From an uncultured Sphingobium sp. (GTDB lineage Bacteria; Pseudomonadota; Alphaproteobacteria; Sphingomonadales; Sphingomonadaceae): 27,413 nt of DNA. Positions 3,455 through 22,142 of this stretch are shown here, piece by piece. Under the pieces are notes generated by a model. The model saw only the letters and a list, made by a program, of their open reading frames with translations, did no database searches and was not told the DNA's origin. Where the stretch lies: positions 1 through 27,413 of the forward strand of contig CAMPHJ010000025.1 in assembly GCA_946885845.1 (NCBI GenBank), in the 5' to 3' direction. The position numbers and the translations under genes are program-made. The number at the start of each line of letters is the position of its first letter. Positions within the stretch are counted from its first letter, which is position 1.

Positions 3455-3479
3455 GGAACACTCGCGAGCCAGCCTCGTT
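3455..3479 (+). promoter_or_regulatory. EcfG (general stress response) type promoter
   Basis: GGAAC at 3455-3459 and CGTT at 3476-3479 are separated by exactly 16 nt, matching the alphaproteobacterial EcfG consensus GGAAC-N16/17-CGTT. A start of transcription near 3486 would leave a leader of about 22 nt holding the GGAG ribosome-binding site of the small ORF at 3508. This is the best-supported promoter in the window. Confidence 0.75.
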
Positions 3480-3507
3480 GACGACCTGCATTCACCGGAG
3501 AACCGTC

Positions 3508-3612: not shown

Positions 3613-3617
3613 TCGAC

Positions 3618-6672: not shown

Positions 6673-6739
6673 GCCCTTCTCCGCCCGGCTTCCTGCACAT
6701 GCGCCACCGTTAACGCCCAAACATCCACCGGGCAAGAAC

Positions 6740-6764
6740 ATTGCTATTGAGAATATCTTGCAAT
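6740..6764. promoter_or_regulatory. Candidate Fur box between the DUF3649 and receptor genes
   Basis: A dyad with outer arms ATTGC (6740-6744) and GCAAT (6760-6764) surrounds an AT-rich centre containing TATTGAGAATA. It is about 40 nt upstream of the receptor start and 68 nt from the divergent membrane gene, so one site could control both. Shape and AT content suit a Fur-type iron repressor site, but it does not match a strict consensus. Confidence 0.4.
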
Positions 6765-6803
6765 CCATGTATCGGCCCCGCGGATTGCACAAAGGGGATC
6801 AAG

Positions 6804-8873
6804 ATGAAGAATTTCGCTCTGGCCAGCGTGGCTGGACTGTTGTCGATCCAGCCTGCCCTCGCCAACGATAGCGCCGCCGATTCGGCATCGGCGCCTGAAT
6901 CCAGCGACGCCATCGTGGTCACCGCGTCCCAATATGCGGGCACCAAGACCGAAACCCCGCTGATCGAAACGCCCCAGCCGATCACGGTCATCACGTCTGA
7001 CCAGTTCATCTCGCAGGGCGCGATCAGCATCAGCGACACGGTCAAATATGGCGCCAGTGTCCTTGCCAATCCCTACGGTCGCGACACGCGCGTGGACGGC
7101 TTCAACATTCGCGGCATCGACGCGTTGCAGTTCCGCGACGGGATGCGCGACATATTCAGCTATTATGCCAGCATCACGTCCGACCCTTATAATTTTTCCC
7201 GCGTGGAAATCGTGCGCGGCCCCGCATCCGTGCTCTACGGACAGGGTTCGATTGGCGGCCTCGTCAACCTCGTTTCAAAGACGCCGGAATTCAAAACGGG
7301 CGGCGAACTGAAGCTCGTCTATGGCAACTTTGATCGCAAGGAAGCGATGGGCGACGTCAACATCGCGCTGGCGGACAACCTCGCGATCCGCGCCGTCGCC
7401 CGCGTCCGCGATGCCGACACCTTTGTCGACCATGTCCCCGATGACCGCGTCATGTTCGCGCCGTCGATCCGCTGGCAGCCCACGCCCGATACGGACATCG
7501 TGCTGACCGGCCTTTATCAGGAGGACGACACGGGTTCGACCTCCCAGTTCCTGCCGATCGTCGGCACGTTCCGGCCGAATATCGTCGCAGGCGAGCAGCT
7601 CGACCGTTACACTTTCGTCGGAAAGCCGGGCTGGGACCGCTATAATGGGCGGTCGCTTCAGGGCGGCGGTTCCATCACCCACGCCTTCTCGGACAATGTC
7701 AGGTTAAGCCTGAAGGCTCGCTATATCGACAGCGACCTTGAATATTTCACCCACTATGCCGACAGCTATACCAACCCGCTCGACCCCTTTTCGGTCTATG
7801 GTACAGACGGACGCACCATCGGCCTGACCGCCGATGCCAGCGACGCGCGGATGAACGTCTTTTCCACCGACAATAATCTGCAATTCAACTTCAACACCGG
7901 CGCCAATATCGAACATAAGTTGCTGGTGGGCATCGACTATAGCTGGAACAAGGTCGGTAAACGCTATGACGGCGGTTCGCAGTTGGTCGATCTCTACGAC
8001 ATCGACTATGACGCACTGCTGACCTACGATCCGACCGGCCCCTTCACCTATGAATCGCAGAAGCAGCTGGGCATCTATATGCAGGACCAGATCCGCTTCT
8101 ACGATCGCGTCTCGCTCGTGCTGGGCGCGCGGCGCGACCGTGTCACCGGCTCTTCGGGTCAAAAGGACAACGCAACCACGTTCCGCGCGGGCATCATCGG
8201 CGAAATCGGCGCGGGTTTCTCGCCCTTCTTCAGCTACACGGAAAGCTTCCTGCCGGTGGCGGGTAACATCCAGGGCCCAGGCGGCGTTCCCATCTCGCCT
8301 TATCGCCCGATGACCGGCACGCAATATGAGGTCGGCGTCAAATGGCAACCAGCCCCCGGCACGCTGGTCACCGTCACCGGCTTCCACATCAAGGAACGCA
8401 ACCGCGTCCTGTATCTGGCCGCCAATGCCACGACCCAGTCGGGCGAGCTGACGACCAAGGGCTTCGAGATCGAGGCAAGCCACACGCTGCCCGGCAATTT
8501 CGAACTGCTGGCCAACTATGGCTACAGCAAGCTCAAGTCGGAGGTGAACACCAACCTGGACTATATGCCGCGCCACACCGCATCGATCTGGTCGACCAAG
8601 ACCTTTGGCCTTCCCGACGCAGCCCAACTGCGCCTGGGCGGCGGCGTGGTCTATAATGGCAAGAGCGTATCGACCAGTTCGCTATGGTCAATCACCACCC
8701 CGTCCCGCACCACCGTGGACGCCCTGGCGGAAATCAGCTGGCAGAACTGGCGCTTTGCGATCAACGCCACCAACCTGCTCAACAACAAATTCTACGCATC
8801 CTGCCTGGCGCGTGGCGACTGTTTCATGGGCGCGCCCCGCAACGTGATGGGCACTGTCGGCTTCCGCTTCTGA
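6804..8873 (+). CDS. TonB-dependent siderophore receptor
   Basis: The 689-residue outer-membrane receptor has a signal peptide (1-20, ending ALA) and a TonB-box-like segment DAIVVTASQ (35-43). A plug domain follows at about 55-165, with RVDGFNIRGID and the VEIVRGPASVLYGQGSIGGLVNLVSK region typical of the siderophore-receptor branch (FhuA/FoxA type). The rest is the beta-barrel, ending in the aromatic GTVGFRF terminus expected for outer-membrane insertion. The start at 6804 follows an AGGGGAT ribosome-binding site; an ATG at 6741 is in frame but lacks one and would overlap the Fur-like site. It is divergent from the DUF3649/PepSY/DUF3325 operon, a usual arrangement for ferric-siderophore uptake. 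The siderophore cannot be named. Confidence 0.95.
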   Translation: MKNFALASVAGLLSIQPALANDSAADSASAPESSDAIVVTASQYAGTKTETPLIETPQPITVITSDQFISQGAISISDTVKYGASVLANPYGRDTRVDGFNIRGIDALQFRDGMRDIFSYYASITSDPYNFSRVEIVRGPASVLYGQGSIGGLVNLVSKTPEFKTGGELKLVYGNFDRKEAMGDVNIALADNLAIRAVARVRDADTFVDHVPDDRVMFAPSIRWQPTPDTDIVLTGLYQEDDTGSTSQFLPIVGTFRPNIVAGEQLDRYTFVGKPGWDRYNGRSLQGGGSITHAFSDNVRLSLKARYIDSDLEYFTHYADSYTNPLDPFSVYGTDGRTIGLTADASDARMNVFSTDNNLQFNFNTGANIEHKLLVGIDYSWNKVGKRYDGGSQLVDLYDIDYDALLTYDPTGPFTYESQKQLGIYMQDQIRFYDRVSLVLGARRDRVTGSSGQKDNATTFRAGIIGEIGAGFSPFFSYTESFLPVAGNIQGPGGVPISPYRPMTGTQYEVGVKWQPAPGTLVTVTGFHIKERNRVLYLAANATTQSGELTTKGFEIEASHTLPGNFELLANYGYSKLKSEVNTNLDYMPRHTASIWSTKTFGLPDAAQLRLGGGVVYNGKSVSTSSLWSITTPSRTTVDALAEISWQNWRFAINATNLLNNKFYASCLARGDCFMGAPRNVMGTVGFRF

Positions 8874-9022: not shown

Positions 9023-10135
9023 TCATTGCAGATAGGTCGCACGCAGCAGCCTTATATCCTCGCCGTTCAATCCCAATCCGCTCCGCACATAGGCGTCAAA
9101 GCTGCCATAGCGCCTCTCCACCTCGTCGAACGCCGCCTCCAGATAGCTGGCCCGGACCGTCATCACCGCTTCCAGATTGGCCGGATCGATGGGGCTGTTC
9201 GACTTCGCCAGCATCTCCATCGCCCGGTCGTTTTTCGCCTTCAGAAACGCGTTGCTCGCCAGATAGTCCGCCATGACCGTTTCGCGCGGCACGCCCAGCA
9301 ACATCAGGATCACCGCACTCGCCCATCCCGTCCGGTCCTTGCCCGCCGTGCAATGATATAGAATGGGCGCGCCGTTCATCTGGTCCAGCAGCGTGGCATA
9401 GGAACGGCGCGCGCTGCCCAGCGATACGAAATCGCGGTTCGCCGCCGTCAACATCTCCACGCCCCTGCCCTCGGTGATGGCCGCAATCGCCTTGCGCATG
9501 TCACCGCCCAGCGACCCTTCGCTGTCCGCCGCGACGTCCAATATCAGGGGCTGGCTTCCCTTTGGCAGCCGATCCGGCTCGCGCGCCCTTTCGCTCTCCG
9601 TCCGCAAATCGGCGACCAGCCGCAGCTTCAACTGCTCCAGCGCCTTCAGGTCCGCATCGCTCACCCGGTCCAGCTGGTCCGACCGGAACAGCAGGCCCAT
9701 CTTGACCCATCGGCCATCGCTGGTCCGATAACCGCCAATGTCGCGCAGATTAGCAATGCTGGACAAATGCAGCGCCCGGTCGGCAATGACCAGCGGCGCG
9801 CCACGGTCGGGCACCAGCGTGAAATAGGGCCGCGTGCCCGGCGCCAAGTTGCGAACCGTGACGCTGCCCGCCCCGCCGCCCTGCGCCAGGGGCGTGCCGG
9901 TCAACACCGGAATTGGCGATCCTGTGACATGGACGGCAACATGCTCCACCCCAGCCGCCTGCCATGCGATCTGATAATCCTCGCTCTCTCCAACCCTGAC
10001 CGCGCTGGCCGTCAGGAACGGACTGACCGCGCTGCCGCTGCGCGCAACAGGCGTGGCGCACCCTGCCAGCCCCGTGATCGAAACGGCTAGGGCAGCCGCG
10101 ACAAATTGACGGCGTTCGATCAGAATTGCAGTCAT
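9023..10135 (-). CDS. Lipoprotein tyrosine/serine phosphatase (PF13350-like)
   Basis: The 370-residue protein carries the P-loop HCTAGKDRTG (261-270) with the nucleophile Cys262 and Arg268. An upstream DLR segment (176-178) is the likely general-acid region, as in the bacterial Y_phosphatase3 family. The N-terminus has both a twin-arginine-like ERRQFVAAALA (7-17) and a lipobox LAGC (23-26), so export and lipid attachment at Cys26 are expected. Residues 40-110 form a beta-rich N-terminal part. It starts 7 nt after the stop of the upstream SDR, so the two are co-transcribed, downstream of a TonB receptor. The substrate is unknown; protein, lipid or sugar phosphates are all possible. An in-frame extension to 10258 would overlap the SDR gene and is rejected. 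Confidence 0.9.
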   Translation of the reverse strand: MTAILIERRQFVAAALAVSITGLAGCATPVARSGSAVSPFLTASAVRVGESEDYQIAWQAAGVEHVAVHVTGSPIPVLTGTPLAQGGGAGSVTVRNLAPGTRPYFTLVPDRGAPLVIADRALHLSSIANLRDIGGYRTSDGRWVKMGLLFRSDQLDRVSDADLKALEQLKLRLVADLRTESERAREPDRLPKGSQPLILDVAADSEGSLGGDMRKAIAAITEGRGVEMLTAANRDFVSLGSARRSYATLLDQMNGAPILYHCTAGKDRTGWASAVILMLLGVPRETVMADYLASNAFLKAKNDRAMEMLAKSNSPIDPANLEAVMTVRASYLEAAFDEVERRYGSFDAYVRSGLGLNGEDIRLLRATYLQ

Positions 10136-10142
10136 ATTTCGG

Positions 10143-10919
10143 CTACCCCCGTTGAGACGATATGTTGCCGCCGTCGACGACAATCTCGGACGCGGTGATA
10201 TAGCTTGCCTCGTCCGACAAAAGAAAGCGCACAACCCGCGCCACTTCATCCGCTTCACCCAGACGATTTAACAGGATGCGCTTTTCGTAATAGCCGTCAG
10301 GCAATGCTTCCACTGATGGACGCAACATCGGCGTCATGATCTGGCCCGGCGACACCGAATTGATGCGAATGCCATCCGCCGCCAGCCGGTCGGCCAGCGA
10401 TCGCACCAGCGACAATATCCCCCCCTTGGCGGCGCTGTAGATCGGGTTGGCCGCATTGCCCAAGGTCGCGTTGATCGACGCAATCGCCACGACTGCAGAA
10501 CCGGGCCGCGCGGCCAGATCACCCCGGATCGCCTGAATGATGAAGGCCAGTGCGCGCAGATGGATCGCAATGCCGCTGTCCCAGCTGTCCGCCGTCATGC
10601 CGTCCAGCGATCCCGTGTCCACGACCCCGGCGGCATGAACCAAGCCGCCTGGCGCGCCGATGGCGTCCCGCGTCGCCGCCAGCGCCGTTTCGATGGCGCC
10701 AATTTCACGCAGGTCTACGGCAATGCTGGTCGCTGGCGTCCCATGCGCATCGGAAATGGCGCGACATGCCTCGGCGGCCATGTCGCCATTGATGTCCCAC
10801 AGGGCGACGGGGCGTCCAACGGCAGCCAGCGCCTGCGCGCAGGCAAGGCCGATGCCCGACGCACCGCCCGTAATGATGACGGGTGACGAAGGGGAGGCAA
10901 AAGCAGGGACAAGCGACAT
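10143..10919 (-). CDS. Short-chain dehydrogenase/reductase (SDR) A
   Basis: The 258-residue classical SDR has the cofactor loop TGGASGIG (17-24), Asp42 at the end of the second strand (WDIN, favouring NAD), HAAG (95-98) in place of the usual NNAG, Ser148, Tyr161 and Lys165 (YSAAK) as the catalytic set, and the SPGQIMTPM segment at about 190-198. It should interconvert an alcohol and a ketone in the cytosol. The start at 10919 follows GGAAG by 8 nt; the frame extends to 11000 without support. It lies 122 nt after the TonB receptor and 7 nt before the phosphatase, so the three genes probably form one operon. Substrate unknown; a steroid-like alcohol fits the neighbourhood but is inference. Confidence 0.92.
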   Translation of the reverse strand: MSLVPAFASPSSPVIITGGASGIGLACAQALAAVGRPVALWDINGDMAAEACRAISDAHGTPATSIAVDLREIGAIETALAATRDAIGAPGGLVHAAGVVDTGSLDGMTADSWDSGIAIHLRALAFIIQAIRGDLAARPGSAVVAIASINATLGNAANPIYSAAKGGILSLVRSLADRLAADGIRINSVSPGQIMTPMLRPSVEALPDGYYEKRILLNRLGEADEVARVVRFLLSDEASYITASEIVVDGGNISSQRG

Positions 10920-11041
10920 GCGCGAAACTTCCTTTATCGGGGCGACGGGCCGTATGTGTCGGAAAGCCCGTTGAAACGAAGCCGCTGATCTGCCGTCCAC
11001 CCTTACGCGGCGGAACGCGGATCAGCGTGACCGCTCCATCC

Positions 11042-13192
11042 TTAAAATTCAACGTTCAGGTCGATGCCATAGGTGCGTGGTTCGCCGAACAATGCGCCCG
11101 GACGACCGACATTGAACTGCATGATATAATAATTCTTGTCCGTCAGGTTGCGTCCCCACAGGCTCGCACGCACACCGCCAAGGCCGGGAATGTCGCCCAG
11201 CGTCAGCCGCGCGTTCAACAGGCCATAGTCACCGATGATATATTTGCCGCTGCTGATCGTGCTGCTGGTATATTTGTCGCTCTGCGCCGTATAATTGACG
11301 TTGGCGCTCATCTGGCCAATCGGCAATCTGGGCAGGTCATAGGTCAGGTCCAGCGCAATCGTATGTTTCGGGGCATTGGTGAAACGGTAATTGTCGGCGA
11401 CATTCGCTCCGGTAGCCCCGGTGATTTCATCATATTCGGCTAGCAGATAGCCATAGTTGACCGACATGCGCAGGTTACGCACCGGCACCATCGTCAGGTC
11501 GACCTCGATCCCCTTGACCGTCGCCTTGCCTGCATTCAGCACGTCGGTCAGGCGGATGTTGGTCGGGTCCGATTGAACATTGACCTGAATGTCCGAATAT
11601 TTGGAAATGAATCCCGCCGCGTTGAAACGCAGCCTGTTGTCCAGCCACTGGCTCTTGATGCCCGCTTCATAGGACCATAGCGTCTCTGGCCCGAAACCTT
11701 CGTTGAACCGCGCGATGGAACTGGCGCGGACATTGAATCCGCCGCTCTTGTAGCCTTTCACCGCCTTGGCATAGATGTTCACGTCCCGCGACACGTCAAA
11801 GGCGACGATGAAGCTGGGGCTGAAATCCTTGAACGTCTCGCTGCCGTCGCCAAAGCCCGGCACCGTGGTGATCGGGCCGCCATTGACCTGTGTCTGGCGC
11901 GCCAGCGTCGCCTCCCGCTTGTCCCAGCTTTGCCGGACGCCGACCGTCAGGTGCAGCCGCCGGTCCAGCCATTGCGGCGTATAGGTCGCCTGGCCGAACA
12001 GCGCATAGGACCGGTTGTCGATGGTCGCCGTGGTAAAGCTGCGCGTCAGCGACGACGGGCTGTAGCTGTTGCTGAAATTGCTGCCGCTTTCGGAAAAATA
12101 ATAGGCGCCCGCCACATATTGCAGGCCGCCGTCCAGCGCGTCGCCGATCAGCTGCACTTCCTGGCTCCACTGGTCCTGCTTCGCGCGGCTGCTATTCTTT
12201 TGCAGCGGGTCGGGACCCAGCGCGCCGGTCAGATAATCCTGGTTCTGGAAATTATCCAGTTTGCGATAGCCTGTGATCGACCGCACCGTCAGTGCGTCGC
12301 TCGCCGCCCATTCCGCCGTCAGGCTGTGCCCGTCCGCGGTGATGTCGTTTGGCGCCACATCGCGCACCAGCGGGCTGCCCGCTTCCGGCCGGTCGGCCAC
12401 CAGCGGATGCAGCGGCGAGACCGCGACATAGGTGGGCGTGTCGCCAATCTCCGTGCGATCATAGCTGTAGCGCAGGCTGAACCGGTCGGACGGCTGCCAA
12501 AGCACGTCGGCGCGCATCGCTTGTCGGTCCTCGTCGCCCCAACGGTCAATTCCGGTGCCGGGGTTGCGGATGAAGCCGTCCTGCCGCTGCTTCACATAGG
12601 ACAGCCGGGCCGCGATGGTGTCGCCCAGCGGAATGTTGACCGCCGCCTTGAAGCGCCGGTTGTCATAATTGCCGATCGTCACCTGACCTTTGAATCCGAA
12701 GTCGCCAAGGTCGGGTTTGCGGGTGATGAAGTTGATCGCGCCGCCGGTCGCGTTGCGGCCATAGAGCGTGCCCTGCGGGCCGCGCAGCACTTCGATCCGC
12801 TCCAGATCGGCAACCTCCATCGCCAGCCCTTGGCTGCGTGCGACATAGACGCCGTCCATATAGACCGCGACGCCGCCATCCTGGGTGATCTGGTCGTCCG
12901 CCAGTCCAACGCCGCGCATGAATATCTGCGTCGTGGCGGCATTGTTGGGAAATGGCGTCAGCTGCAGGTTGGGCACCTGCGCGCGCAGGTCGGTCAGTCC
13001 GCTTATGCCCTTATTCTCCAGGTCGCGGGCGCTAAACGCCGCTATCGAAATGGGCGTGTCCTGCAACGATTCCTCGCGCTTCTGCGCGGTGACGACAATC
13101 TCCTCGATCGCGCCATCCTGCGCCAGCGCCGGCGCGGCAGTCGAACTCATCAGCAAGGCGGCAATGGAACGGGCAAACAGGTGATTCGGCAT
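11042..13192 (-). CDS. TonB-dependent receptor, catabolic type
   Basis: The 716-residue outer-membrane receptor starts at an ATG with a GGGGAGGATCT ribosome-binding site. A signal peptide (about 1-25, ending ALA-Q) precedes a TonB-box segment EEIVVTAQKREES. The plug has IFMRGVG, VYMDGVYVARS and the IEVLRGPQGTLYGRNATGGAINFIT region typical of the large sphingomonad/caulobacter receptor group that takes up plant or aromatic compounds. The C-terminus ends with an aromatic residue (IDLNVEF), as expected. It is divergent from a TetR regulator with an operator overlapping its likely promoter, so it is probably induced by the transported compound. The substrate cannot be read from sequence. Confidence 0.95.
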   Translation of the reverse strand: MPNHLFARSIAALLMSSTAAPALAQDGAIEEIVVTAQKREESLQDTPISIAAFSARDLENKGISGLTDLRAQVPNLQLTPFPNNAATTQIFMRGVGLADDQITQDGGVAVYMDGVYVARSQGLAMEVADLERIEVLRGPQGTLYGRNATGGAINFITRKPDLGDFGFKGQVTIGNYDNRRFKAAVNIPLGDTIAARLSYVKQRQDGFIRNPGTGIDRWGDEDRQAMRADVLWQPSDRFSLRYSYDRTEIGDTPTYVAVSPLHPLVADRPEAGSPLVRDVAPNDITADGHSLTAEWAASDALTVRSITGYRKLDNFQNQDYLTGALGPDPLQKNSSRAKQDQWSQEVQLIGDALDGGLQYVAGAYYFSESGSNFSNSYSPSSLTRSFTTATIDNRSYALFGQATYTPQWLDRRLHLTVGVRQSWDKREATLARQTQVNGGPITTVPGFGDGSETFKDFSPSFIVAFDVSRDVNIYAKAVKGYKSGGFNVRASSIARFNEGFGPETLWSYEAGIKSQWLDNRLRFNAAGFISKYSDIQVNVQSDPTNIRLTDVLNAGKATVKGIEVDLTMVPVRNLRMSVNYGYLLAEYDEITGATGANVADNYRFTNAPKHTIALDLTYDLPRLPIGQMSANVNYTAQSDKYTSSTISSGKYIIGDYGLLNARLTLGDIPGLGGVRASLWGRNLTDKNYYIMQFNVGRPGALFGEPRTYGIDLNVEF

Positions 13193-13258
13193 AGATCCTC
13201 CCCGGAAAAACATCAGCCTGGCGGGCGATTTGGCGCGCTTCTCCCCAGGCAGCTGCAA

Positions 13259-13280
13259 ATCTACCTACTAGTCCGTAGAT
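13259..13280. promoter_or_regulatory. TetR-type operator between the receptor and tetR genes
   Basis: A 22-bp dyad has 6-nt arms ATCTAC (13259-13264) and GTAGAT (13275-13280), and a central ACTAGT (13267-13272) that is itself palindromic. Only the two bases on each side of the centre break the symmetry. It lies between the divergent receptor and TetR genes, the usual place for an autoregulatory TetR site. Confidence 0.75.
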
Positions 13281-13290
13281 AATGACGCAA
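13262..13290 (-). promoter_or_regulatory. Likely promoter of the TonB receptor operon
   Basis: On the minus strand TTGCGT (13290-13285) and TAGGTA (13267-13262) are separated by 17 nt. The TetR dyad covers the spacer and the -10 box, so binding would block the polymerase. The -10 is a modest match, so the call rests mainly on spacing and position. Confidence 0.45.
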
Positions 13291-13358
13291 CTCTTTTCCA
13301 TCCGCTGGATCATTCATGCAATCGACATTGCCTCCCCCCTCCTCCACCGCATAAGAAC

Positions 13359-13997
13359 ATGATGATGACCGCAACCAGACCGACCATCCGCCAGCCCCGC
13401 GGCGACGCCACCCGCATCCAGATTCTCGACGCCGCCGAACGCATCTTCGCCGACATCGGCTACGCCGCCGCCCGCCTCGATCACGTGGCGGAAGCAGTGG
13501 GAATCCGCCGCCCGTCGATCCTCTATTATTTCACCGGCAAGCAGCAGCTTTATGATGAAGTCGAAGCCGACATCTTCGCCTCCATGCACAGCTTCGTGCT
13601 CAACCGGACAGACGGCGTCACGGACCCGATGGAACGATTGCTCGCCCTGCTCGACGCCTGGCTCGATTTCCTGGTAAGCCGCCCCACCGCTGCGCGGATC
13701 ATCCAACGCCTCATCGCGGACTCCGCCGCCTACGGTAACAACCCAGTACGCTTCTCAGAATCCGCGCTCCAGGACCTGGAGGATGTCGTGGCTACCGGCG
13801 TTGCAAGCGGTCAGTTTCAGCCGGTCTCTGCGATGGTTCTGCTCAACACCGTCGCAGGCGGCGCTCTGCATTATGTCTGCAACGCGCATCAACTGGGCCC
13901 AACTCGCTCATACGATCCAGCGGCTCCCGCCCAGCTTACAGAATTCCGCTCGATGATGCACCGGCTGGCAAAGGCAGCGGTCGTGCCGCCGGGCTGA
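13359..13997 (+). CDS. TetR-family transcriptional regulator
   Basis: The 212-residue regulator has an N-terminal TetR helix-turn-helix at about 18-66. The recognisable DHVAEAVGIRRPSILYYFTGKQQLYDEV (41-68) covers the recognition helix and the conserved YYF-K-LY stretch. The remaining part is a divergent helical ligand-binding domain. Three in-frame ATGs (13359, 13362, 13365) are possible and no strong ribosome-binding site is visible. It is divergent from the TonB receptor and the shared intergenic space holds a near-perfect palindrome, so it probably represses the receptor / SDR / phosphatase operon and itself. The inducer is likely to be the transported compound or a metabolite of it. Confidence 0.93.
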   Translation: MMMTATRPTIRQPRGDATRIQILDAAERIFADIGYAAARLDHVAEAVGIRRPSILYYFTGKQQLYDEVEADIFASMHSFVLNRTDGVTDPMERLLALLDAWLDFLVSRPTAARIIQRLIADSAAYGNNPVRFSESALQDLEDVVATGVASGQFQPVSAMVLLNTVAGGALHYVCNAHQLGPTRSYDPAAPAQLTEFRSMMHRLAKAAVVPPG

Positions 13998-14121
13998 TGG
14001 CGCGCCAGCCCCGACTACACTTGCCTCCACGAATGCCTTTGCGATAGTGGCTTCCGAATAACGATCGCCACTGAGCGATTATCTCCCGTTTATCCGTAAA
14101 AAAGGGCAAGGCGTTTCGGTG

Positions 14122-15756
14122 ATGGTGAAGGCTGATTTTATTGTCGTAGGGACAGGCGCTGGCGGCCTGGTAGGCGCAATCTCAGCCAAGCTGAACGGCC
14201 TCAACCCGCTGATCATCGAGAAAACCGCACATTGGGGCGGGACGAGCGCACTGTCTGGCGGCGGGGTCTGGATTCCCAACAACCACCTGATGCAGCGCGA
14301 CGGGGTAGAAGACAGTTTCGACGCCGCCCTTGCCTATATGGAAGCCACCATCGGCGATGTCGGCCCGGCCAGCAGCAGCGAACGCAAGGCGGCCTATCTG
14401 AATGTCGGCCCGGAAATGGTAAAGGCTCTTGAGGCGCTGGGCCTGGGCTGGCGCCGTGCCCCCCGATATCCCGACTATCATCAGGACCAGCCCGGCGCGC
14501 GGGTAGGCCGCACGCTGGAAGGCGTGAGTTTCGACGGAAAGAAGCTGGGCAACTGGCTCAAGACCATGCGCAAGTCGGACCTCCCGTCGATGGTGATGAG
14601 CACCGATGACGCGCCCCAAATTCCAACCATGCTCCGGTCGCTCAAGTCATTTTGGGCCGCGATGCGCATGATAGGGCGGACGCTGGCGTGGCGCGCGCGC
14701 GGACGCGAGCCGCTGTCCATGGGAACCACGCTCGTGGCGCAGTTGATGGCCATCGCCCAACGGCTGGAAATCCCTGTCCTGCTGGACACCCCGCTCAAAT
14801 CCCTGATTCAGGAGGACGGCAAGGTGGTGGGTGTCGTAACCGGCCATGGTGAGACCGAACAACGGATCATGGCGCCACGCGGCGTGCTGCTGGCTACAGG
14901 CGGGTTCGCCAAGAACAGCGGTTACCGAAAGCTGTTTCAGGAAGTTGATGGTGAATGGAGCCCGGCAAGCCCAGGCGATACCGGCGACGGCCAGCGGATT
15001 GGCGCGGAAATTGGAGCTGAACTCGCCCTGATGGATGCCGCCACCTGGTATCCTGTATCAATCCTGCCGGATGGCACCATCAATGTCGGCATTTGGGAAC
15101 GCACCTTGCCTGGGTCAATCATCGTGGACGCTTCCGGGCAGCGATATACGAACGAAGCGGCATCCTATGTCAATGCGGGCCGTGCAATGCTGGATCGCGA
15201 CAAGACCGTGAGCGCAGTTCCCAGCTGGCTCATTTTCGACAATCGCTATCGCAGCCGTTATTTCTTTGGATCAACTCCTCCTGGCGTGAATGGCGAATTT
15301 CTGAAAAGCGGTTTCTTCATCAATGCGCCCACGCTCCATCAACTCGCCGATAAGTGCGGGATCAATGCGGACGGGCTGGAGCGAACGGTCCAACGGGTAA
15401 ACAGCATGGCGATAAGCGGCGTCGATGAAGATTTCGGCCGTGGCGACAATGTCTACGATCAATATTATGGAGATCCTGGGAATCGGCCAAATCCATCCTT
15501 TGGTCCCATCGACAAAGCTCCCTTCTATGCCACGCGCTTTTATCCGGGTGACCTCAGCACCAAGGGAGGATTGATGGCGGATGAGCATGCCCGGGTCCTT
15601 CGCCCGGACGGCAGCGTCATCGAAGGGCTTTATGCTGCGGGCAACTGCGCCGCTCCCGTCATGGGCAGAACCTATCCCGGCGCAGGCGCAACGCTTGGTC
15701 CGGCCATGGTATTTGCATGGATCGCCGGTCGACATGGTGCGTCTAGCGCTGGGTGA
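14122..15756 (+). CDS. FAD-dependent 3-ketosteroid-Delta1-dehydrogenase-like protein
   Basis: The 544-residue flavoprotein of the FAD_binding_2 family closely resembles 3-ketosteroid Delta1-dehydrogenases (KstD), which insert a 1,2 double bond in the steroid A ring. It begins with the FAD loop GTGAGG (10-15) and has GGTSALSGGGVWIPN (39-53), a family signature. Residues matching the KstD active site are visible: Tyr119 in RYPDYH, Tyr349 in RYTNEAASY, and Tyr518 with Gly522 in TYPGAGAT near the C-terminus. The C-terminal FAD part reads YAAGNCAAPVMG. ATG 14122 is used; a GTG at 14119 is equally possible. Related enzymes act on other substrates too, so the steroid assignment is likely but not certain. 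SDR genes nearby fit steroid-like catabolism. Confidence 0.88.
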   Translation: MVKADFIVVGTGAGGLVGAISAKLNGLNPLIIEKTAHWGGTSALSGGGVWIPNNHLMQRDGVEDSFDAALAYMEATIGDVGPASSSERKAAYLNVGPEMVKALEALGLGWRRAPRYPDYHQDQPGARVGRTLEGVSFDGKKLGNWLKTMRKSDLPSMVMSTDDAPQIPTMLRSLKSFWAAMRMIGRTLAWRARGREPLSMGTTLVAQLMAIAQRLEIPVLLDTPLKSLIQEDGKVVGVVTGHGETEQRIMAPRGVLLATGGFAKNSGYRKLFQEVDGEWSPASPGDTGDGQRIGAEIGAELALMDAATWYPVSILPDGTINVGIWERTLPGSIIVDASGQRYTNEAASYVNAGRAMLDRDKTVSAVPSWLIFDNRYRSRYFFGSTPPGVNGEFLKSGFFINAPTLHQLADKCGINADGLERTVQRVNSMAISGVDEDFGRGDNVYDQYYGDPGNRPNPSFGPIDKAPFYATRFYPGDLSTKGGLMADEHARVLRPDGSVIEGLYAAGNCAAPVMGRTYPGAGATLGPAMVFAWIAGRHGASSAG

Positions 15757-15955
15757 ACCCTTCCGCCCGGATTGCTGTATGCTCACGCGCCGCCCGACGA
15801 CCCTGCTATCGTAATCCGCCTTCGCGAAAATCCTTCGCGCTACGACAGGCAGCGATGGGCGTGGCATCAGCATGGATCAGCTTATGCACGCGTTGCGCAA
15901 ACGGGGGCACCCACCTTTGGTGAGCGCGTTTCCCCAAAACTATCGCGATCCAGCT
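15757..15955. other. Spacer between convergent genes, nothing recognised
   Basis: This 199-bp region separates the convergent flavoprotein and SDR genes. A plus-strand frame from 15872 runs into the SDR gene and matches nothing I recognise. No strong terminator hairpin was seen. Confidence 0.4.
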
Positions 15956-16759
15956 TTAGCTGTCAGGACCCAGATCTGGCACCCATCCCGCGCCGTTGAT
16001 GTGCGCGCCCCCATCGACGAACAATGTACTACCTGTAAGGTAGCGCGCGTCTTCGCTGGCCAGGAATAATGCAACGCCGCCGATATCTGCCTCTGGATCA
16101 CCCATGCGGCCCATCGGATTTCCTGCGGTGGTAGCGGCTGCGATCTCTGGCTCGGCCTTCTGGAATTCCCGATATCCGGCGGATACGGCGGCGGGGCAGA
16201 TGATATTGGCACAGATGCCGTAGCCCGCCCATTCCCGCGCGGCGCTGCGGGTGTAAGCGCGAAGCGCTTCCTTGCCGACATTATATTCGGCGGTCCCCAT
16301 ATGCGCATTGACGCCATTGAGCGACCCGATGTTGATGATGCGGCCCCAATGTCGGCTGCGCATGTGCGTGAAAGCTGCCTCCATCGACCATTTCGCGGCG
16401 TAAAGGCACATGTTCATGCAGGATTCGAATTGCGCGTCGGACAGCGTTTCGATGCGCTGCACTCCTCCGCCGCTAAACGCATTGTTGACCAGCACATCGA
16501 CAGAACCGAAGCGATCTACACAGGCCTGAACGGCACCGACCACATCGTCCCGCACCGTAACATCACATTTACGGAAATCAGCTTCCACACCGAGACCGCG
16601 CAATTCCTCCACAACCTGCACGCCCTTATCGGCATTGAAGTCAGCGACCAGGATAGACCCGCCCTCCTGGGCAAATCGCAACGCGATGCCCCGGCCAATT
16701 CCGTCCGCCGCTCCGGTAATTAGCGCCGCACGCCCGGCAAGCCTATTTCCCACGCTCAT
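15956..16759 (-). CDS. Short-chain dehydrogenase/reductase (SDR) B
   Basis: The 267-residue classical SDR has TGAADGIG (15-22), Asp40 (VADF, NAD preference), NNAF at 92-95 where NNAG is standard, Ser146, Tyr159 and Lys163 (YNVGK), and a C-terminal LTGSTLFVDGGAHI stretch. It should oxidise a secondary alcohol or reduce a ketone in the cytosol. The start at 16759 follows AGGAGATC and is well supported. It is divergent from another SDR and convergent with the KstD-like gene, so it is likely part of the same catabolic block. Many sterol and terpene dehydrogenases are of this type, but the substrate cannot be derived. Confidence 0.92.
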   Translation of the reverse strand: MSVGNRLAGRAALITGAADGIGRGIALRFAQEGGSILVADFNADKGVQVVEELRGLGVEADFRKCDVTVRDDVVGAVQACVDRFGSVDVLVNNAFSGGGVQRIETLSDAQFESCMNMCLYAAKWSMEAAFTHMRSRHWGRIINIGSLNGVNAHMGTAEYNVGKEALRAYTRSAAREWAGYGICANIICPAAVSAGYREFQKAEPEIAAATTAGNPMGRMGDPEADIGGVALFLASEDARYLTGSTLFVDGGAHINGAGWVPDLGPDS

Positions 16760-16816
16760 ACGTCGATCTCCTGCATCTGTGATGTCGCTCCCGAGCAAGG
16801 TCGAGTAACGGATGGC

Positions 16817-16830
16817 GATTGTCAACAATC
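16817..16830. promoter_or_regulatory. Short palindrome between divergent SDR genes
   Basis: GATTGT (16817-16822) and ACAATC (16825-16830) form a perfect inverted repeat around a CA centre, in the space between two divergent genes. It could be an operator for a TetR or MarR type regulator. It overlaps a TTGACA-like box on the minus strand. Confidence 0.45.
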
Positions 16831-16913
16831 TGCGAATATGATGTATCGTTCAGCGCGATGCCCTCGGGCGAGTGTCGAGCAAGGCCCGACAGAGGCAGAA
16901 GGACCATGATTTG

Positions 16914-17768
16914 ATGACAGGTGAGAATGAAGTTCAACGCCCGGTGGCACTAGTCACCGGGGCGACGCGCGGAATCGGCCGGGCAATAGCGATCGCCCTT
17001 GGCCGCGCCGGTTTTGCAGTCGCGGTGACCGGGCGCACCATGGCGGAAGGCACGGGGCGCATGGACAGCATGGGTAGCACGCCCGTTCCGGGCAGCGTCG
17101 CATCGACCGTGGCAGCGATAGAAGCGGCGGGCGGCCAGGCGATGGGTGCCCGGATCGACCTGCTCGACCGCGAATCCATCGATTCAGGCGTCGCGGCGGT
17201 GCTCGACCGCTGGGGTAGGATCGACGTGCTGGTGAACAACGGCATCTATCAGGGGCCGGTCATCCTGCAACCGGTAATGGAAGCCGCGTTGGAGGACGCC
17301 GAACGCGCAATCACAGGCAATTTCATCAACCAGTTTTACCTTAGCCGCATCGTGCTGAAGACTATGATCGCGCAGGGATCAGGGCGGATGATCTTCATGA
17401 CCACATTGTCGTCGGCAGAACCCGCCGCCAAAGCTGCCGGGGTCGGGTTATTCTACCTCGCGCCCAAGGCGGCGTTTAATCGCATCCCGGACCACATCAA
17501 TTTTGAACATGGGAAGGACGGGATCAGCGCCTTTTTGATCGAACCGCGCTTTACGATGACGGACACATTGCGTGCTGCGATGGGCGACGATGCAGATTCG
17601 ATCGGACAGGGTGAAGCTGCGCGTGATCCTGAGGAAACTGCACAGACCGTAGTTTGGTTGGCGAGCGATGTGGATGCGCCGAAATATGCGGGGCCGGAAA
17701 TGATCAATGCGCCGGATTTCCTTTCGGAACGAGGAATTTTGGCGCGGGAATGCATGAAGGAAGCATAG
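16914..17768 (+). CDS. Short-chain dehydrogenase/reductase (SDR) C
   Basis: The 284-residue SDR has the cofactor loop TGATRGIG (15-22), VNNG at 107-110, a Ser pair at 166-167 and Tyr181-Lys185 (YLAPK). Unlike the other two SDRs it has an insertion of about 18 residues after strand two (MAEGTGRMDSMGSTPVPGS) and Arg41 after Gly40 (TGRT), which suggests NADP use. The start at 16914 lies after an AGAAGGA sequence 10 nt upstream. It is divergent from SDR B with a palindrome between them and convergent with the GH106 gene. Reaction and substrate are unassigned; a ketone reductase or an alcohol dehydrogenase of the same pathway is likely. Confidence 0.9.
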   Translation: MTGENEVQRPVALVTGATRGIGRAIAIALGRAGFAVAVTGRTMAEGTGRMDSMGSTPVPGSVASTVAAIEAAGGQAMGARIDLLDRESIDSGVAAVLDRWGRIDVLVNNGIYQGPVILQPVMEAALEDAERAITGNFINQFYLSRIVLKTMIAQGSGRMIFMTTLSSAEPAAKAAGVGLFYLAPKAAFNRIPDHINFEHGKDGISAFLIEPRFTMTDTLRAAMGDDADSIGQGEAARDPEETAQTVVWLASDVDAPKYAGPEMINAPDFLSERGILARECMKEA

Positions 17769-17793
17769 GTTTGTAGCGGTTTTCAGATAATGG

Positions 17794-17821
17794 GTCGGCA
17801 GTCGATCGTTTCGCTGCCGAC
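17794..17821. terminator. Bidirectional terminator between SDR C and the GH106 gene
   Basis: GTCGGCAG (17794-17801) pairs with CTGCCGAC (17814-17821) around a 12-nt loop, in the 68-bp gap between convergent genes. On the plus strand it is followed by a T-rich stretch (TCTATTATT), which supports intrinsic termination of the SDR C transcript. Confidence 0.6.
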
Positions 17822-17836
17822 TCTATTATTGCTGGC

Positions 17837-20698
17837 TTATTTCCGTGCCTCCAGCCGGACCGGGCCGACCCAGCCGGCGGGGACGGGTTTGAGTTTTTTG
17901 TACACCGCGTCGTTGGGATTGATCATCCCGTTTTGCAGCACATTGGCGACGACCACGGTCAGGGCATTGGCGCCCGGTTTGAGAGCCGGGGTCAGGTCGA
18001 CCCGGAAGGGCGCGGCGATGACCGGTTGCAAGGTGCGGCCATTGACCGTCACGGTGGCGATGTCGTGCACTTGACCGAGGTCGAGCGTGACCCTGGTCCC
18101 GGCGGCCAGCCAGCCCGGATCGACGGTGAAGGATCGGCTATAGCTTGCCTGACCCGCGAAACCCGCCAGTTCGGGGACTTCGCGCCAGTCCTTGAGCGAC
18201 ACTGAACCAAAGTCGTGGGTAAAGGGCTGGCGCATGACATGCCCCTTGACCGACAGCGACCAGCCGGTGGCGGGCAGGTCCGCCGAACCGACGAGCGCGG
18301 GCGCGGCAACCGTCCGGGGCTGCGTTTTCGGATCGAGGACAAGGAGCGCGCTTTCCCCCGCCGCCAGCGTCAGCGGCACGCGGGTCGCCCCATCAACCGC
18401 ACCCGCAGATTGCGCCGATATGCTGCCGTCCATCGCGTCCCAGCGCGTCACGCCGCCAATGCCCGGCAGCGATATGTTGACGTTCCGGGCGGCGTCGGCG
18501 CGGTTGTGAAGGAAGGTCGCGGTGCGTCCATCGACCCGCCGTTGCACAAAGACCAGGTCGCTGGCGTCGCCGCCAAAACTGAGGTTCGCGGGCACGGAGG
18601 CTGCGCGGAGCGCCGCTGAAACTTCGCCCGCTGGCACGACCTTTGCCCCGGCCTTGAGAGCGGCGGCGACAGCCTTGCGGACGCGGGCGTCCCGCGCCTT
18701 TGCGTCCGCCAGCCCTTCGTCACGGCTGGGCGCGCGGCCGGTGAAGATGACCGGCAGGCCCGATTTGGCCATGGCGGCAATCGCTTCAGCCGTGTCGGCG
18801 CGAATGCCATCGATAGGTGGCAGGACGAGCGCTCCGTAGCGCTGGCCGCCCCTGGACAAGAGCTGCCGTCCCTCGACCTTTGCCTGCGCGATGGAGTCGG
18901 GATTGATGCGGTCGAAGTCATAGCCGCTGGCAAGGAACGCCTTTTCCGCCGCCTGCTTGCCAGCGCCATCATCTTCTATGCCGACATAATAGCCATAACG
19001 GCCATAGAAATAGGCGACGGGCACCACAGCCTCACCCGCCTGCAATACGGACTGGAGACGGCCGATATAGGCGGCCAGCGTCTTCATGCCGGGCCAGACC
19101 GGATTGGTTTCATTGATCGGCCCGCTGAACCCCAAGGCGAAGGGGCTGGGCTGGAAGGCGTGCCAGCCGGGCCAGTCGTCGGCATGGAAACGGTAGTTCA
19201 TGCCGTGCATGATGATGCTGTTGACGCCGCCCGACAGGATGGTGTCGGCGCGGCGGCGCATTTCGCCGGGCGTCACGTCATAGGGCCGGTCTTTCCACGC
19301 GAAACTTTCGGCCGATATGATGGGCCGCCCGTAAAGATGAGCGGCGGAACGGGCAAAGCGCATGAACAGGGGATCGCCGCCATGGGGCAGATCCTCCGTT
19401 TCTGGAATATCGGCCAGGCCATAGCCGCGGATGATGTCGAACGCGCCGCCATGCGCCTGAAACTTTGCCTTCAACCCATGGGCATGGTTCCACGCCACGA
19501 ACGGTTCGATGAACCCGGCGAACATCATGTCGGACACGGTGCGGCGATAATCGGCGCGCACCCGTTCCGCCAGGTCGCTGGCCGATGTGTCGAAATAAGG
19601 TGGCGAATAATGTTCGTCCCACGCCTGCATCCAACCGGGCTGCACGACGAAGGGGAGATAGGGGGTCAGGTCATATCCCCGGCGCTTGCGGAATTCGTCG
19701 AGAAGTTGCGGACCCCATTGGATGTCCTGCATCAGTTCCAGGCTGTCGACGAAGGTCGATCGCAACCCGGTCGGGTTCCTGCCCAAAGGCGCGCCGACGC
19801 GCGCGGCGTGCGCGGCGAAGCCGGTCGGGTCCATATGATCCAGGATCAGTTGCGGCCCCTGCCCTGCCGCGCCCAGCACGCCGACATCGGCGGCATATTG
19901 GCGAAAGACGAAGACCTGCCAGTCGCCCGGCGGCGGCGTCCAGTCGAGCGTGCCGTCGTCGTTCAGCCGGTCGGTCAGCACAATGCGGCTGGCCGGGTCC
20001 AATGTGCCCGAAGTCAGCACGTCGCTCCACGGAGAGATCGTCAGGCCCATGGCGCCAGGGCGCTTCACAAGATCGGGCGCGCTGCCCTTCATCGCGACGA
20101 CGGCGACCGTCCGCGCGCGGGCATCAAGCCGCTTGCCCCAGTCGGCGACCTTTGGGTCCTTGACGCGGGCATCCAGGAAGTTGAGCGCGCCCAGCCGCCG
20201 CGTCCGTTTTGGCAATGTCACCTTGATGGGGCCGGATTGACCGCCCTTCACCTCGGTACGGGCCATGCTGAGTTCGGTGAACGCCTTTTCCGGGGGAATG
20301 GCAAAGCCGCCGCCCGACGGCCAGGAGGACCCAAGCGTATAGTCCAGCGTCAGGCCCGCCGCCTTTGCCGCCTCCCGTGCTGTGCGCAAATGGGCGAAGA
20401 AACTGGGTTCGCCATAGTTGTTCACGGCGACCTTTTCTTCCGGGGTCAAGGTCACGAAACCGGGGGTGAACGACGCCACTTCCGCGCCACCAAAGCCATT
20501 GTCCGCCATCAGCCGGACCTCTCGCGTCAATTCCGCGTCGGTGACGGCGTCGCCCGGCCACCACCAGCGCAGACGGGGCCGCGCCTCGACAGCCGGGGTC
20601 TTGAACCCATCTTCAAGGGTCTGCGTCCAGCCTGTCGTGACTGTCGTGGCGAACATCGCCGTTGCGGCGAGCAAACCGCCCATTGCCCTGCTGTTCAA
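17837..20698 (-). CDS. Exported GH106-like alpha-L-rhamnosidase (TTG start)
   Basis: The 953-residue protein resembles GH106 alpha-L-rhamnosidases, which remove terminal rhamnose from plant glycosides or polysaccharides. A signal peptide (about 1-25) points to the periplasm. The family opening PRLRWWWPGDAVT (41-53) and NGFGGAEV (67-74) is clear. The catalytic barrel runs to about 620 and contains ISAESFAWKD (461-470, conserved Glu464) and the MHGMNYRFHADDWPGW stretch (498-513). A C-terminal beta-sandwich follows (about 810-953), with VTVNGR and FRVDLTPALKPGAN as in galactose-binding modules. The TTG at 20698 is used because GGAGG lies 7 nt upstream; ATG 20683 is the alternative. It is the only glycoside hydrolase in the block. 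Confidence 0.9.
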   Translation of the reverse strand: MNSRAMGGLLAATAMFATTVTTGWTQTLEDGFKTPAVEARPRLRWWWPGDAVTDAELTREVRLMADNGFGGAEVASFTPGFVTLTPEEKVAVNNYGEPSFFAHLRTAREAAKAAGLTLDYTLGSSWPSGGGFAIPPEKAFTELSMARTEVKGGQSGPIKVTLPKRTRRLGALNFLDARVKDPKVADWGKRLDARARTVAVVAMKGSAPDLVKRPGAMGLTISPWSDVLTSGTLDPASRIVLTDRLNDDGTLDWTPPPGDWQVFVFRQYAADVGVLGAAGQGPQLILDHMDPTGFAAHAARVGAPLGRNPTGLRSTFVDSLELMQDIQWGPQLLDEFRKRRGYDLTPYLPFVVQPGWMQAWDEHYSPPYFDTSASDLAERVRADYRRTVSDMMFAGFIEPFVAWNHAHGLKAKFQAHGGAFDIIRGYGLADIPETEDLPHGGDPLFMRFARSAAHLYGRPIISAESFAWKDRPYDVTPGEMRRRADTILSGGVNSIIMHGMNYRFHADDWPGWHAFQPSPFALGFSGPINETNPVWPGMKTLAAYIGRLQSVLQAGEAVVPVAYFYGRYGYYVGIEDDGAGKQAAEKAFLASGYDFDRINPDSIAQAKVEGRQLLSRGGQRYGALVLPPIDGIRADTAEAIAAMAKSGLPVIFTGRAPSRDEGLADAKARDARVRKAVAAALKAGAKVVPAGEVSAALRAASVPANLSFGGDASDLVFVQRRVDGRTATFLHNRADAARNVNISLPGIGGVTRWDAMDGSISAQSAGAVDGATRVPLTLAAGESALLVLDPKTQPRTVAAPALVGSADLPATGWSLSVKGHVMRQPFTHDFGSVSLKDWREVPELAGFAGQASYSRSFTVDPGWLAAGTRVTLDLGQVHDIATVTVNGRTLQPVIAAPFRVDLTPALKPGANALTVVVANVLQNGMINPNDAVYKKLKPVPAGWVGPVRLEARK

Positions 20699-20858
20699 AA
20701 TGTCGCCTCCAAATTGATCGGTTGCGTTCAATAAAACATAAGGTTCTGGTGAACGCCAGAGCAGGCTGAAAATCAATCATGCGCGCAGGAAACAACCGCA
20801 GGAACATTGCGGATCGTTACGGCTTGATATCGCAACCGCCAGAATGGGGAGCAAGCGT

Positions 20859-22142
20859 GTGAATCGATGGCAATGGGCAATTGCGCTGCTCACGCGCAGA
20901 ATGTGGTTTCGGGCATCGCTTTTTTGCCTGTTCGCCGTGGCGCTGGCGCTGGCAGGCGCGCTGATCGGAGAGGCGATTTCCTACGATTTCGCGACAAAGG
21001 TCGGCGCGAAGGCGGTGGACAATATTCTGAACGTGCTGGCCACCAGCATGTTGGCGGTCACGACATTTTCCCTGACGGCAATGGTGTCCGCCTATGCCGG
21101 GGCGACCAGCAACATCACCCCGCGCGCCGTGCAACTGCTGGTCGATGATGTGACGGCGCAAAATGCGCTCGCGACCTTTCTTGGCAGCTTCCTGTTCGCG
21201 ATCGTGGGGATCATCGCACTGTCGACCGGAATTTACGGCGAAACCGGCCGCGTCATCCTGTATGCGGGGACGGTTCTGGTGATCGTGGTGATCGTCATCA
21301 CATTTCTGCGATGGATTGAGCATATCACCCGATTTGGCCGGGTCGGCGATACCATCGACCGAGTGGAAAGGGCCGCGACCGCCGCAGCAGGCGCGATGGG
21401 GCAAGGGTTATGTTTTGGACCGCGCCCGGCAGAGCCTGTCCCCGATGGCGCGACCCTGATCCGCCATTCCAAAATCGGTCGCGTGACCCATGTCGATACC
21501 GACGCCATCGCCAAAGTGGCTGACGAAACTGGCGCGCCTGTCATGCTGACCGCCCTGCCCGGCAATGTGATCGAGCCGTGGCGTCCGCTGGCCTGGACCG
21601 CGGCCACGCTGGATGACAAGTTGGAGGAGTGCATAAGGGAGGCATTCACCATTTCGCACAATCGGGCCTATGATCATGATCCCCGGTTTGGCCTGGTCGT
21701 GCTGTCCGAAATCGGATCGCGGGCGCTGTCCCCGGCGGTGAACGATGGCGGGACTGCCATCGCCGTATTGGAAGCGGGCACCCGCGTCCTGGCCGCGATG
21801 CTTCGCCTGGAGGCTGAGCCCAAGGAGGAAGGGGAGAAGGAGAAGCAAACGGGCGTGCGCGTCCCGCCATTCGCATTTTCAGACCTGCTGGAAGACCTGT
21901 TCCACCCCATCGCGCGTGATGGCGCGGGGTCGGTCGAAGTCGGCATCCGTCTGCAAAAGTCACTCGCGGCGCTGCAGGTGATTGCGCCCGAAGCGCGATC
22001 CGACTGCCGGGACGCAGCGCGCGATGCCCTGGAGCGGGCCTGCGCGGCATTGACCAGCGAAAAGGATCGGGAACGGGTGAAGCGCGTCCACTATCGATTC
22101 TGGCACGGCGGCCTGGACGCGGGAAGTTCGCGTCCAGGCTGA
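20859..22142 (+). CDS. DUF2254 membrane protein (GTG start)
   Basis: This 427-residue inner-membrane protein belongs to DUF2254, a family of unknown function. Four hydrophobic helices are visible (about 18-38, 57-79, 105-125 and 133-153). They are followed by a soluble region of about 270 residues with the conserved HTDAIAKVADETG-like part and the segment LSPAVNDGGTAI (about 280-291), a family signature. The GTG at 20859 is preferred because GGGGAG lies 7 nt before it; ATG 20844 is in frame but has no ribosome-binding site. It is divergent from the GH106 gene and convergent with the SulP transporter. A channel or transport role is often assumed for the family but is not shown here. The 3-prime end forms a hairpin. 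Confidence 0.88.
   Translation: MNRWQWAIALLTRRMWFRASLFCLFAVALALAGALIGEAISYDFATKVGAKAVDNILNVLATSMLAVTTFSLTAMVSAYAGATSNITPRAVQLLVDDVTAQNALATFLGSFLFAIVGIIALSTGIYGETGRVILYAGTVLVIVVIVITFLRWIEHITRFGRVGDTIDRVERAATAAAGAMGQGLCFGPRPAEPVPDGATLIRHSKIGRVTHVDTDAIAKVADETGAPVMLTALPGNVIEPWRPLAWTAATLDDKLEECIREAFTISHNRAYDHDPRFGLVVLSEIGSRALSPAVNDGGTAIAVLEAGTRVLAAMLRLEAEPKEEGEKEKQTGVRVPPFAFSDLLEDLFHPIARDGAGSVEVGIRLQKSLAALQVIAPEARSDCRDAARDALERACAALTSEKDRERVKRVHYRFWHGGLDAGSSRPG
22111..22139. terminator. Perfect 11-bp hairpin inside the last codons of the DUF2254 gene
   Basis: GCCTGGACGCG (22111-22121) pairs perfectly with CGCGTCCAGGC (22129-22139) around a 7-nt loop. It covers the last ten sense codons, ending one base before the stop codon TGA. 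The convergent SulP gene ends 20 nt further on, so it may terminate both transcripts, although no T-run follows on either side. Confidence 0.6.

Follow-up and report, generated by a model that had tools for sequence, protein, structure and literature searches.

A probable catabolic locus for plant steroidal glycosides in an uncultured Sphingobium

Proposed function of the locus

The window analysed here is the whole 27,413-nucleotide stretch of contig CAMPHJ010000025.1 (assembly GCA_946885845.1) from an uncultured Sphingobium sp. The locus under study, at positions 9,023 to 20,698, groups a TetR regulator, a TonB-dependent receptor, three short-chain dehydrogenases (SDRs), a KstD-like flavoprotein, a phosphatase and a GH106 alpha-L-rhamnosidase. 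We consider it probable that a Sphingobium-like bacterium uses this locus to break down steroidal glycosides of plants, either saponins or glycoalkaloids. Most likely it allows a soil bacterium to draw nutrition from plant steroid saponins or to render them harmless. All eight genes named in the original prediction were confirmed in the window by Pfam and NCBIfam searches, and with a probable operator they are arranged as follows:

9023..10135, minus strand: PTP-type phosphatase, probably an exported lipoprotein, gene 3 of the receptor operon (Y_phosphatase3, Pfam E 2e-68; open reading frame (ORF) 9023-10258)
10143..10919, minus strand: SDR1, classical short-chain dehydrogenase, gene 2 of the receptor operon (Pfam SDR; ORF 10143-11000)
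11042..13192, minus strand: TonB-dependent receptor, gene 1 of the receptor operon (Pfam; ORF 11042-13258)
13260..13279, no strand: probable TetR operator TCTACCTACTAGTCCGTAGA in the receptor/TetR intergenic gap (alignment of 11 intergenic regions)
13359..13997, plus strand: TetR-family regulator, divergent to the receptor (Pfam TetR_N, TetR_C_29; 94% in S. vermicomposti)
14119..15756, plus strand: KstD-like flavoprotein, probable 3-ketosteroid delta1-dehydrogenase (FAD_binding_2; NCBIfam 3-ketosteroid-delta-1-dehydrogenase below cut-off; solved relatives)
15956..16759, minus strand: SDR2, divergent partner of SDR3 (Pfam SDR; ORF 15956-16828)
16914..17768, plus strand: SDR3, rare short-chain dehydrogenase (Pfam SDR; ORF 16872-17768)
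17837..20698, minus strand: GH106 alpha-L-rhamnosidase with an N-terminal signal-like segment (Pfam E 5e-65; ORF 17837-20776)

The starts of the phosphatase, SDR1, receptor, SDR2, SDR3 and GH106 genes were picked by eye, and the N-termini of GH106 and the phosphatase were likewise judged by eye for export (signal, lipobox, twin-arginine). SDR motifs were found, those of SDR1 being YSAAK and G...G.G, and the CX5R motif of the phosphatase reads CTAGKDR (residue 303 of the long ORF). Structure-database searches with all three SDRs returned broad SDR matches only.

In the proposed pathway the GH106, probably exported, would remove terminal L-rhamnose outside the cytosol, as its family and the biochemistry of a neighbouring clade suggest. 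The outer-membrane receptor, presumably repressed by TetR, may import the trimmed glycoside or the free aglycone, a role to which its co-occurrence with steroid-ring catabolism points. In the cytosol the SDRs would oxidise hydroxyls, probably including the 3-OH, and the KstD-like enzyme, judging by its family and key residues, would add a double bond to ring A. KshA and later steps, acting on the nucleus, would be encoded elsewhere in the genome; KshA was seen in relatives only.

Co-occurrence with the steroid marker KshA

KshA (PF19298, E<=1e-45) was used as the steroid marker and was found in 18 of 94 Sphingobium genomes and 38 of 298 family genomes. This cut was chosen after the genus table had been viewed, at a drop of the best match per genome from 4.8e-48 to 1.4e-35; the Pfam curated cut-off alone scores 47/94 genomes as positive, many of them by short matches near 25 bits. 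In the genus, all nine genomes with a receptor relative of at least 77% were KshA-positive, against 9 of the 85 others (p 5e-8 by Fisher test, which treats genomes as independent though they are related; the genome lists were transcribed by hand from the search tables). The GH106 gave the same picture (10/11 versus 8/83, p 5e-8, with G364 as the exception), as did SDR3 (5/5, p 2e-4) and the kstD orthologue at 84% or more (3/3, p 0.006). Steroidal and flavonoid rhamnosides had both been proposed as substrates to be compared, and the counts for GH106 and receptor favour a steroid rather than a flavonoid setting.

Two other genes of the window served as controls, at genus level only, and neither tracked KshA. 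The other receptor, at 6741-8873, was present in 51 of the 94 genomes (KshA in 10/51 versus 8/43, p 1), and SulP gave 2/15 versus 16/79 at 80% or more (p 0.73) and 10/56 versus 8/38 at E<=1e-150 (p 0.79). Of the 298 family genomes 12 hold the receptor (E<=1e-200), and KshA accompanied it in 12/12 versus 26/286 of the remainder (p 3e-12); with the six genomes shared with the genus set removed, the count was 10/10 (p 2e-10). Of these 12 receptor matches five are no closer than paralogues (49-58%). The other seven reach 63% or more, G073 among them through a partial match (66%, residues 261-738), and were again all KshA-positive (7/7, p 3e-7).

Relation of the GH106 to a published saponin operon

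The GH106 matched profile PF17132 with 220.7 bits against a cut-off of 29, and aligned with the solved proteins 6q2f and 5mqm. Over 95% of its length it is 73.6-76.4% identical to the GH106s on 12 PLSDB plasmids, from 11 Tom Sphingobium isolates and S. herbicidovorans. In the three inspected (TomMM7A, TomTYG65 and S. herbicidovorans) the gene context was GH3-GH106-esterase (alpha/beta hydrolase)-GH78, with Pfam confirmation of the esterase and GH78 of S. herbicidovorans. The plasmid order matches that of Sphingobium RC1, which is SpGH3-1, SpGH106-1, one gene and SpGH78-1, the named genes being 03247, 03248 and 03250 (PMC10653915, mBio 2023). From this order, the families and the strain list of PMC10653915, we infer that the Tom plasmid operon is the RC1 operon.

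SpGH106-1 cleaves alpha-1,2-linked rhamnose off alpha-solanine and probably off dioscin, the gene set is present in all tomatine-degrading isolates, and S. herbicidovorans MH converts tomatine to putative intermediates (PMC10653915). The suspected link to saponins was supported in that the published saponin rhamnosidase belongs to a clade neighbouring that of the window GH106. The pairing of a rhamnosidase with steroid genes had been put forward as unusual; GH106 action on steroidal saponins, and the presence of such enzymes in genomes with steroid genes, are already published for RC1 (PMC10653915).

A triterpenoid (oleanane- or dammarane-type) saponin as substrate, handled by steroid-type enzymes, appears improbable. 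The SDRs are unspecific by sequence and the RC1 enzymes Sp3betaHSD1 and 2 also oxidise glycyrrhetic acid (PMC10653915), but RC1 left soyasaponin Bb and glycyrrhizin undegraded, its six saponin glycoside hydrolases gave no product from either (PMC10653915), and the association with KshA points to a steroid nucleus.

A quickly built tree of 109 GH106 rows, which did not include the RC1 SpGH106-1 sequence, placed the window protein in a clade of nine rows (support 99) with S. vermicomposti, G382, G350, Chol11 (G002), G275, a 'Sphingomonas paucimobilis' record and two further rows. The operon GH106s of the Tom isolates and S. herbicidovorans form a separate clade of 20 rows, and a third clade of 10 rows (G307, G347) likewise has esterase and GH78 genes nearby. 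The three clades lie within one 39-row group (support 93), with no clear branching order inside it. By this placement the window GH106 was rejected as an orthologue of SpGH106-1; it lies in a neighbouring paralogue clade, and its substrate can therefore only be predicted. G350, G002 and G382 each hold both a window-clade GH106 and an operon copy.

In G382 the window-clade GH106 adjoins GH35/42-like, GH3 and acetyl-xylan-esterase-like genes. A near-identical cluster was observed in Chol11 and G350 (L052:2578-16832; L053), containing genes for an aldehyde dehydrogenase, GH35/42-like, GH43, GH39, GH106, TetR, epimerase/3-beta-HSD-like and FAD_binding_2 proteins (Pfam was run on Chol11, to which G350 is nearly identical). 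In a strain known for bile salts this makes one more candidate for a saponin cluster. Members of the window clade thus sit among genes for enzymes that strip sugars, close to genes for steroid-type enzymes, and their own substrate is predicted.

Conservation of the block in Sphingobium vermicomposti

From base 5055 onward the window corresponds to about 21 kb of S. vermicomposti DSM 21299 (G001 contig C1, ~599-621 kb) in the same gene order: PepSY, receptor, phosphatase, SDR1, receptor, TetR, SDR2, SDR3, GH106, SulP, ArsC, ACR3 and kinase. Bases 1-5054 had no match at this syntenic place. Within the block the protein identities are 83% for the phosphatase, 84% for SDR1, 91% for the receptor, 94% for TetR, 93% for SDR2, 89% for SDR3 and 91% for GH106; in the flanks they are 79% for PepSY, 77% for the second receptor, 92% for SulP, 88% for ArsC and 91% for ACR3, with the kinase matched by DNA. 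Because the gene order is conserved in this relative, the block is taken to be real. The S. vermicomposti genome holds GH106, GH3 and KshA, and its GH3 gene (L013 12457-14679; Pfam GH3 confirmed) lies ~1.5 kb past the equivalent of the window end, following the kinase counterpart, and shares 78-79% identity with the GH3 in the saponin operon.

The kstD gene did not prove to be a fixed member as had been supposed. In S. vermicomposti it is missing from between TetR and SDR2, where the gap is only ~40 bases, and sits elsewhere, on contig C3 (L001). The insert in the window spans 13982-15956 at most, and window DNA 14037-15772, which includes ~80 bases upstream of kstD, matches the S. vermicomposti C3 kstD place at 84%. 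The gene is mobile, having been inserted between tetR and SDR2 here or lost in S. vermicomposti, and it is therefore regarded as a movable guest. The whole block as one fixed gene cluster was accordingly rejected. The DUF2254 gene is likewise absent from the S. vermicomposti block, a second gain or loss beside that of kstD. Conservation, proposed earlier as a check on the block, was therefore mixed, and the scattering in relatives that was to count against the prediction was seen in part: the rest of the block is syntenic in S. vermicomposti, whereas kstD stands alone in four relatives (L001, L002, L055 and L008), with none of the other block genes nearby, and the SDR pair lies far from GH106 in G350 and TomMM7A, as given below.

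The KstD-like protein

The KstD-like protein is a probable delta1-dehydrogenase by family and key residues, and a delta4 activity is also possible. Its best NCBIfam model, NF009478, scored 648.4 bits, below the equivalog cut-off of 789. The closest solved relative is 7p18, a 3-oxosteroid 1-dehydrogenase of AcmB type (E 2e-111); the match to the 3-ketosteroid dehydrogenase 4c3x reached 302 bits, and that to the delta4-5alpha enzyme 4at0 was weak (73 bits). Similarity to the KstD family (7p18, 4c3x) thus extends over the whole length and includes the four key residues, but the scores fall below the NCBIfam cut-offs and the activity is predicted. The key residues of KstD are Tyr119, Tyr318, Tyr487 and Gly491 (PMC5960168), which here correspond to Y120, Y350, Y519 and G523 when the numbers are paired by eye on the 8jbz alignment; the active-site tyrosines expected by the original prediction are thus in place.

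A scan of genome contigs for kstD found two loci, in S. vermicomposti (89%) and in Novosphingobium (later Sphingobium) sp. Chol11 (87%). Among the 94 Sphingobium genomes an orthologue of at least 84% was present in three, the next-best match being 45%. When 18 window proteins were compared with the 10 kb on either side of the two kstD copies, only a 31% receptor match was found besides kstD, and Pfam searches of five kstD neighbours each in L001 and L002 had no result in common.

The receptor module and its operator

Receptor relatives of at least 77% occur in nine of the 94 Sphingobium genomes; a tenth match at E<=1e-150 is no closer than 53%. S. vermicomposti (L012) and 8/8 further loci (L076-L083) keep the genes for TetR, receptor, SDR1 and phosphatase side by side in one order. 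The phosphatase, which had been set aside as an unrelated gene, therefore belongs to the receptor operon. A calcineurin-like phosphoesterase gene is added to the module in five of these eight loci and in TomTYG65.

The gap between receptor and TetR holds a TCTACCTACNNGTNNGTAGA-like sequence in 11/11 aligned regions, and the palindrome-like operator pattern was found at this place in all ten module loci (L004, L012, L076-L083), marking a candidate TetR site. In the window it is unique at 13260-13279, before the receptor operon, and with up to 3 mismatches allowed it was otherwise found only at the same place on the opposite strand. Among five family loci of lower similarity (L084-L088; receptor 63-74% by tblastn), a relaxed form of the pattern was present in two and missing in three. 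Two receptor paralogues (50-51%) were seen within ~460 bases of a KshA match, in G348 (C1:250102-252168, KshA at 252623; span C1:250102-253219) and in G382 (C2:253213-255312, KshA at 255769; span C2:253213-256365).

More tentatively, the module may be a dedicated route, not yet described, by which Sphingomonadaceae take up steroid conjugates across the outer membrane. The receptor would import the conjugate, one or more periplasmic phosphatases would cleave a phosphate-type ester, and the SDR would then oxidise the hydroxyl so released, ahead of ring breakdown. In combination with GH106 the module would act on a rhamnosylated steroid. A phosphate-type conjugate as the phosphatase substrate is the boldest reading, and its basis is gene content.

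The SDR2/SDR3 pair

SDR3 (E<=1e-60) was found in five of 94 Sphingobium genomes, all among the 11 that are positive for GH106 at E<=1e-100 (p 8e-6); G275 was scored GH106-positive with its gene split across two contig ends. In the family sample of 298 genomes SDR3 occurred in two (G001, G232) and GH106 in two (G001, G275), all with KshA. Plasmid SDR3 records at the same threshold all came from Tom isolates (11/11). Among 7998 candidates scored from a 5.8-billion set, 70 proteins were SDR3 relatives at E<=1e-80. The SDR3 relative P0255 and the GH106 P0140 come from contigs that share the length 48293, which suggests that the two may be one contig.

SDR2 adjoins SDR3 in L003, L012, L016, L031, L032, L034 and L035, and was not found in the 1.5-kb SDR3 flanks of L018, L033, L036 and L037; the same holds for these flanks in G367 and G232. 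The pair adjoins GH106 in the window and in S. vermicomposti. It lies 10-11 kb from the operon GH106 in TomTYG65, Chol11 and G382. In G350 and TomMM7A some 450 kb (~446 kb in the latter) separate it from the closest GH106 of its own replicon.

One pathway or separate functions

Several observations weigh against a single pathway for steroidal glycosides, besides the choice of the KshA cut and the relatedness of the genomes described above. The KshA evidence comes from relatives and not from the window's own host. The receptor occurs without this GH106 in four of the nine genus genomes that hold it (G314, G321, G323 and G348), and of the 11 genus genomes with GH106 six lack the receptor at 77% or more and six lack SDR3. 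No operator copy was found in the window before kstD, SDR2/SDR3 or GH106, so one co-regulated set was not supported. The GH106 of the window groups outside the clade formed by the operon copies of the Tom plasmids, and neither GH3 nor GH78 is in the window.

These points leave room for an alternative that we regard as unlikely, though the strongest of the competing explanations: that the locus does two separate jobs, a set for uptake and oxidation of free steroids (bile salt, sterol, hormone) and a GH106 for flavonoid or pectic rhamnosides, the two being chance neighbours on a catabolic island. The placement of the operator before the receptor operon only and the receptor genomes without GH106 fit such a division, as do the kstD orthologue in the bile-salt degrader Chol11 and the GH106 of Novosphingobium PP1Y, reported to be active on flavonoid glycosides (stated in PMC10653915). 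However, the GH106 itself tracks KshA and covers all five SDR3 genomes, steroidal saponins are substrates of an enzyme from the neighbouring clade, and the window-clade GH106s of Chol11 and G350 lie beside GH39, GH43, epimerase/3-beta-HSD-like and FAD_binding_2 genes.

Neutral juxtaposition, with genes of no common substrate gathered by transfer on a plasmid-like replicon, is very improbable. The absence of kstD and DUF2254 at the matching place in S. vermicomposti would agree with it, as would the wide spacing of the SDR pair and GH106 in TomMM7A and that in TomTYG65, where the receptor module, GH106 operon and kstD are mutually >300 kb apart. Against it, the remaining block is conserved in S. 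vermicomposti and its parts co-occur with KshA while the two window controls do not. Catabolism of a plant steroidal glycoside thus remains our preferred reading.

Comparison with known systems

The window resembles the RC1 saponin system in its GH106 of neighbouring clade, which has its homologues in the Tom isolates of the same paper and S. herbicidovorans, in SDR3, which is on 11 of the same Tom plasmids, and in the steroid-ring genes reported for the same genomes (PMC10653915). It differs in that the GH106 stands beside SDR3, the receptor module and kstD, and that GH3, esterase and GH78 are not with it in the window. The S. vermicomposti block differs from the window in lacking both the DUF2254 gene and a kstD between TetR and SDR2. 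The bile-salt degrader Chol11 encodes a kstD orthologue (87%), the module with a receptor of 90% identity, an SDR2/SDR3 pair at 63-64% and GH106s of the two types, but at separate places, except that SDR2/SDR3 are near the GH106 operon. The available text of two Chol11 papers assigns no role to its kstD, receptor module, SDR pair or GH106.

The main text of the RC1 paper (PMC10653915) contains 0 occurrences of TonB. The available portions of PMC10653915, PMC12882949, PMC8044976 and PMC8540908 did not refer to the receptor module, to the SDR pair or to a second clade of GH106, and no paper on them was found among the literature matches listed. The receptor/uptake module may thus be new and is the freshest lead of the locus, being a specific, small and genetically testable candidate tied to KshA in 9/9 genus and 12/12 family genomes. 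The locus also brings in a second clade of GH106, neighbour to the one active on saponins, and links a rare pair of SDRs with Sphingobium that degrade saponins; it would help explain how root bacteria tolerate and live on plant defence saponins.

Other genes in the window

At 226-1179, ~8 kb from the block, lies a gene of the 3-keto-disaccharide hydrolase family (PF06439), possibly a glycoside-handling enzyme. A PepSY_TM protein and the second TonB receptor form a divergent pair at 4787-8873, and a DUF2254 membrane protein gene occupies 20844-22142, between GH106 and SulP. ArsC and an ACR3 arsenite transporter (TIGR00832 above cut-off) are encoded at 24294-25822. The Pfam match at 24611-25822 to SBF, the 'Sodium Bile acid symporter family', was rejected as steroid evidence, since the ACR3 model is above cut-off there and the gene adjoins ArsC. 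A sensor-kinase-like gene at 25951-27411 (domain call by eye) runs past the window end.

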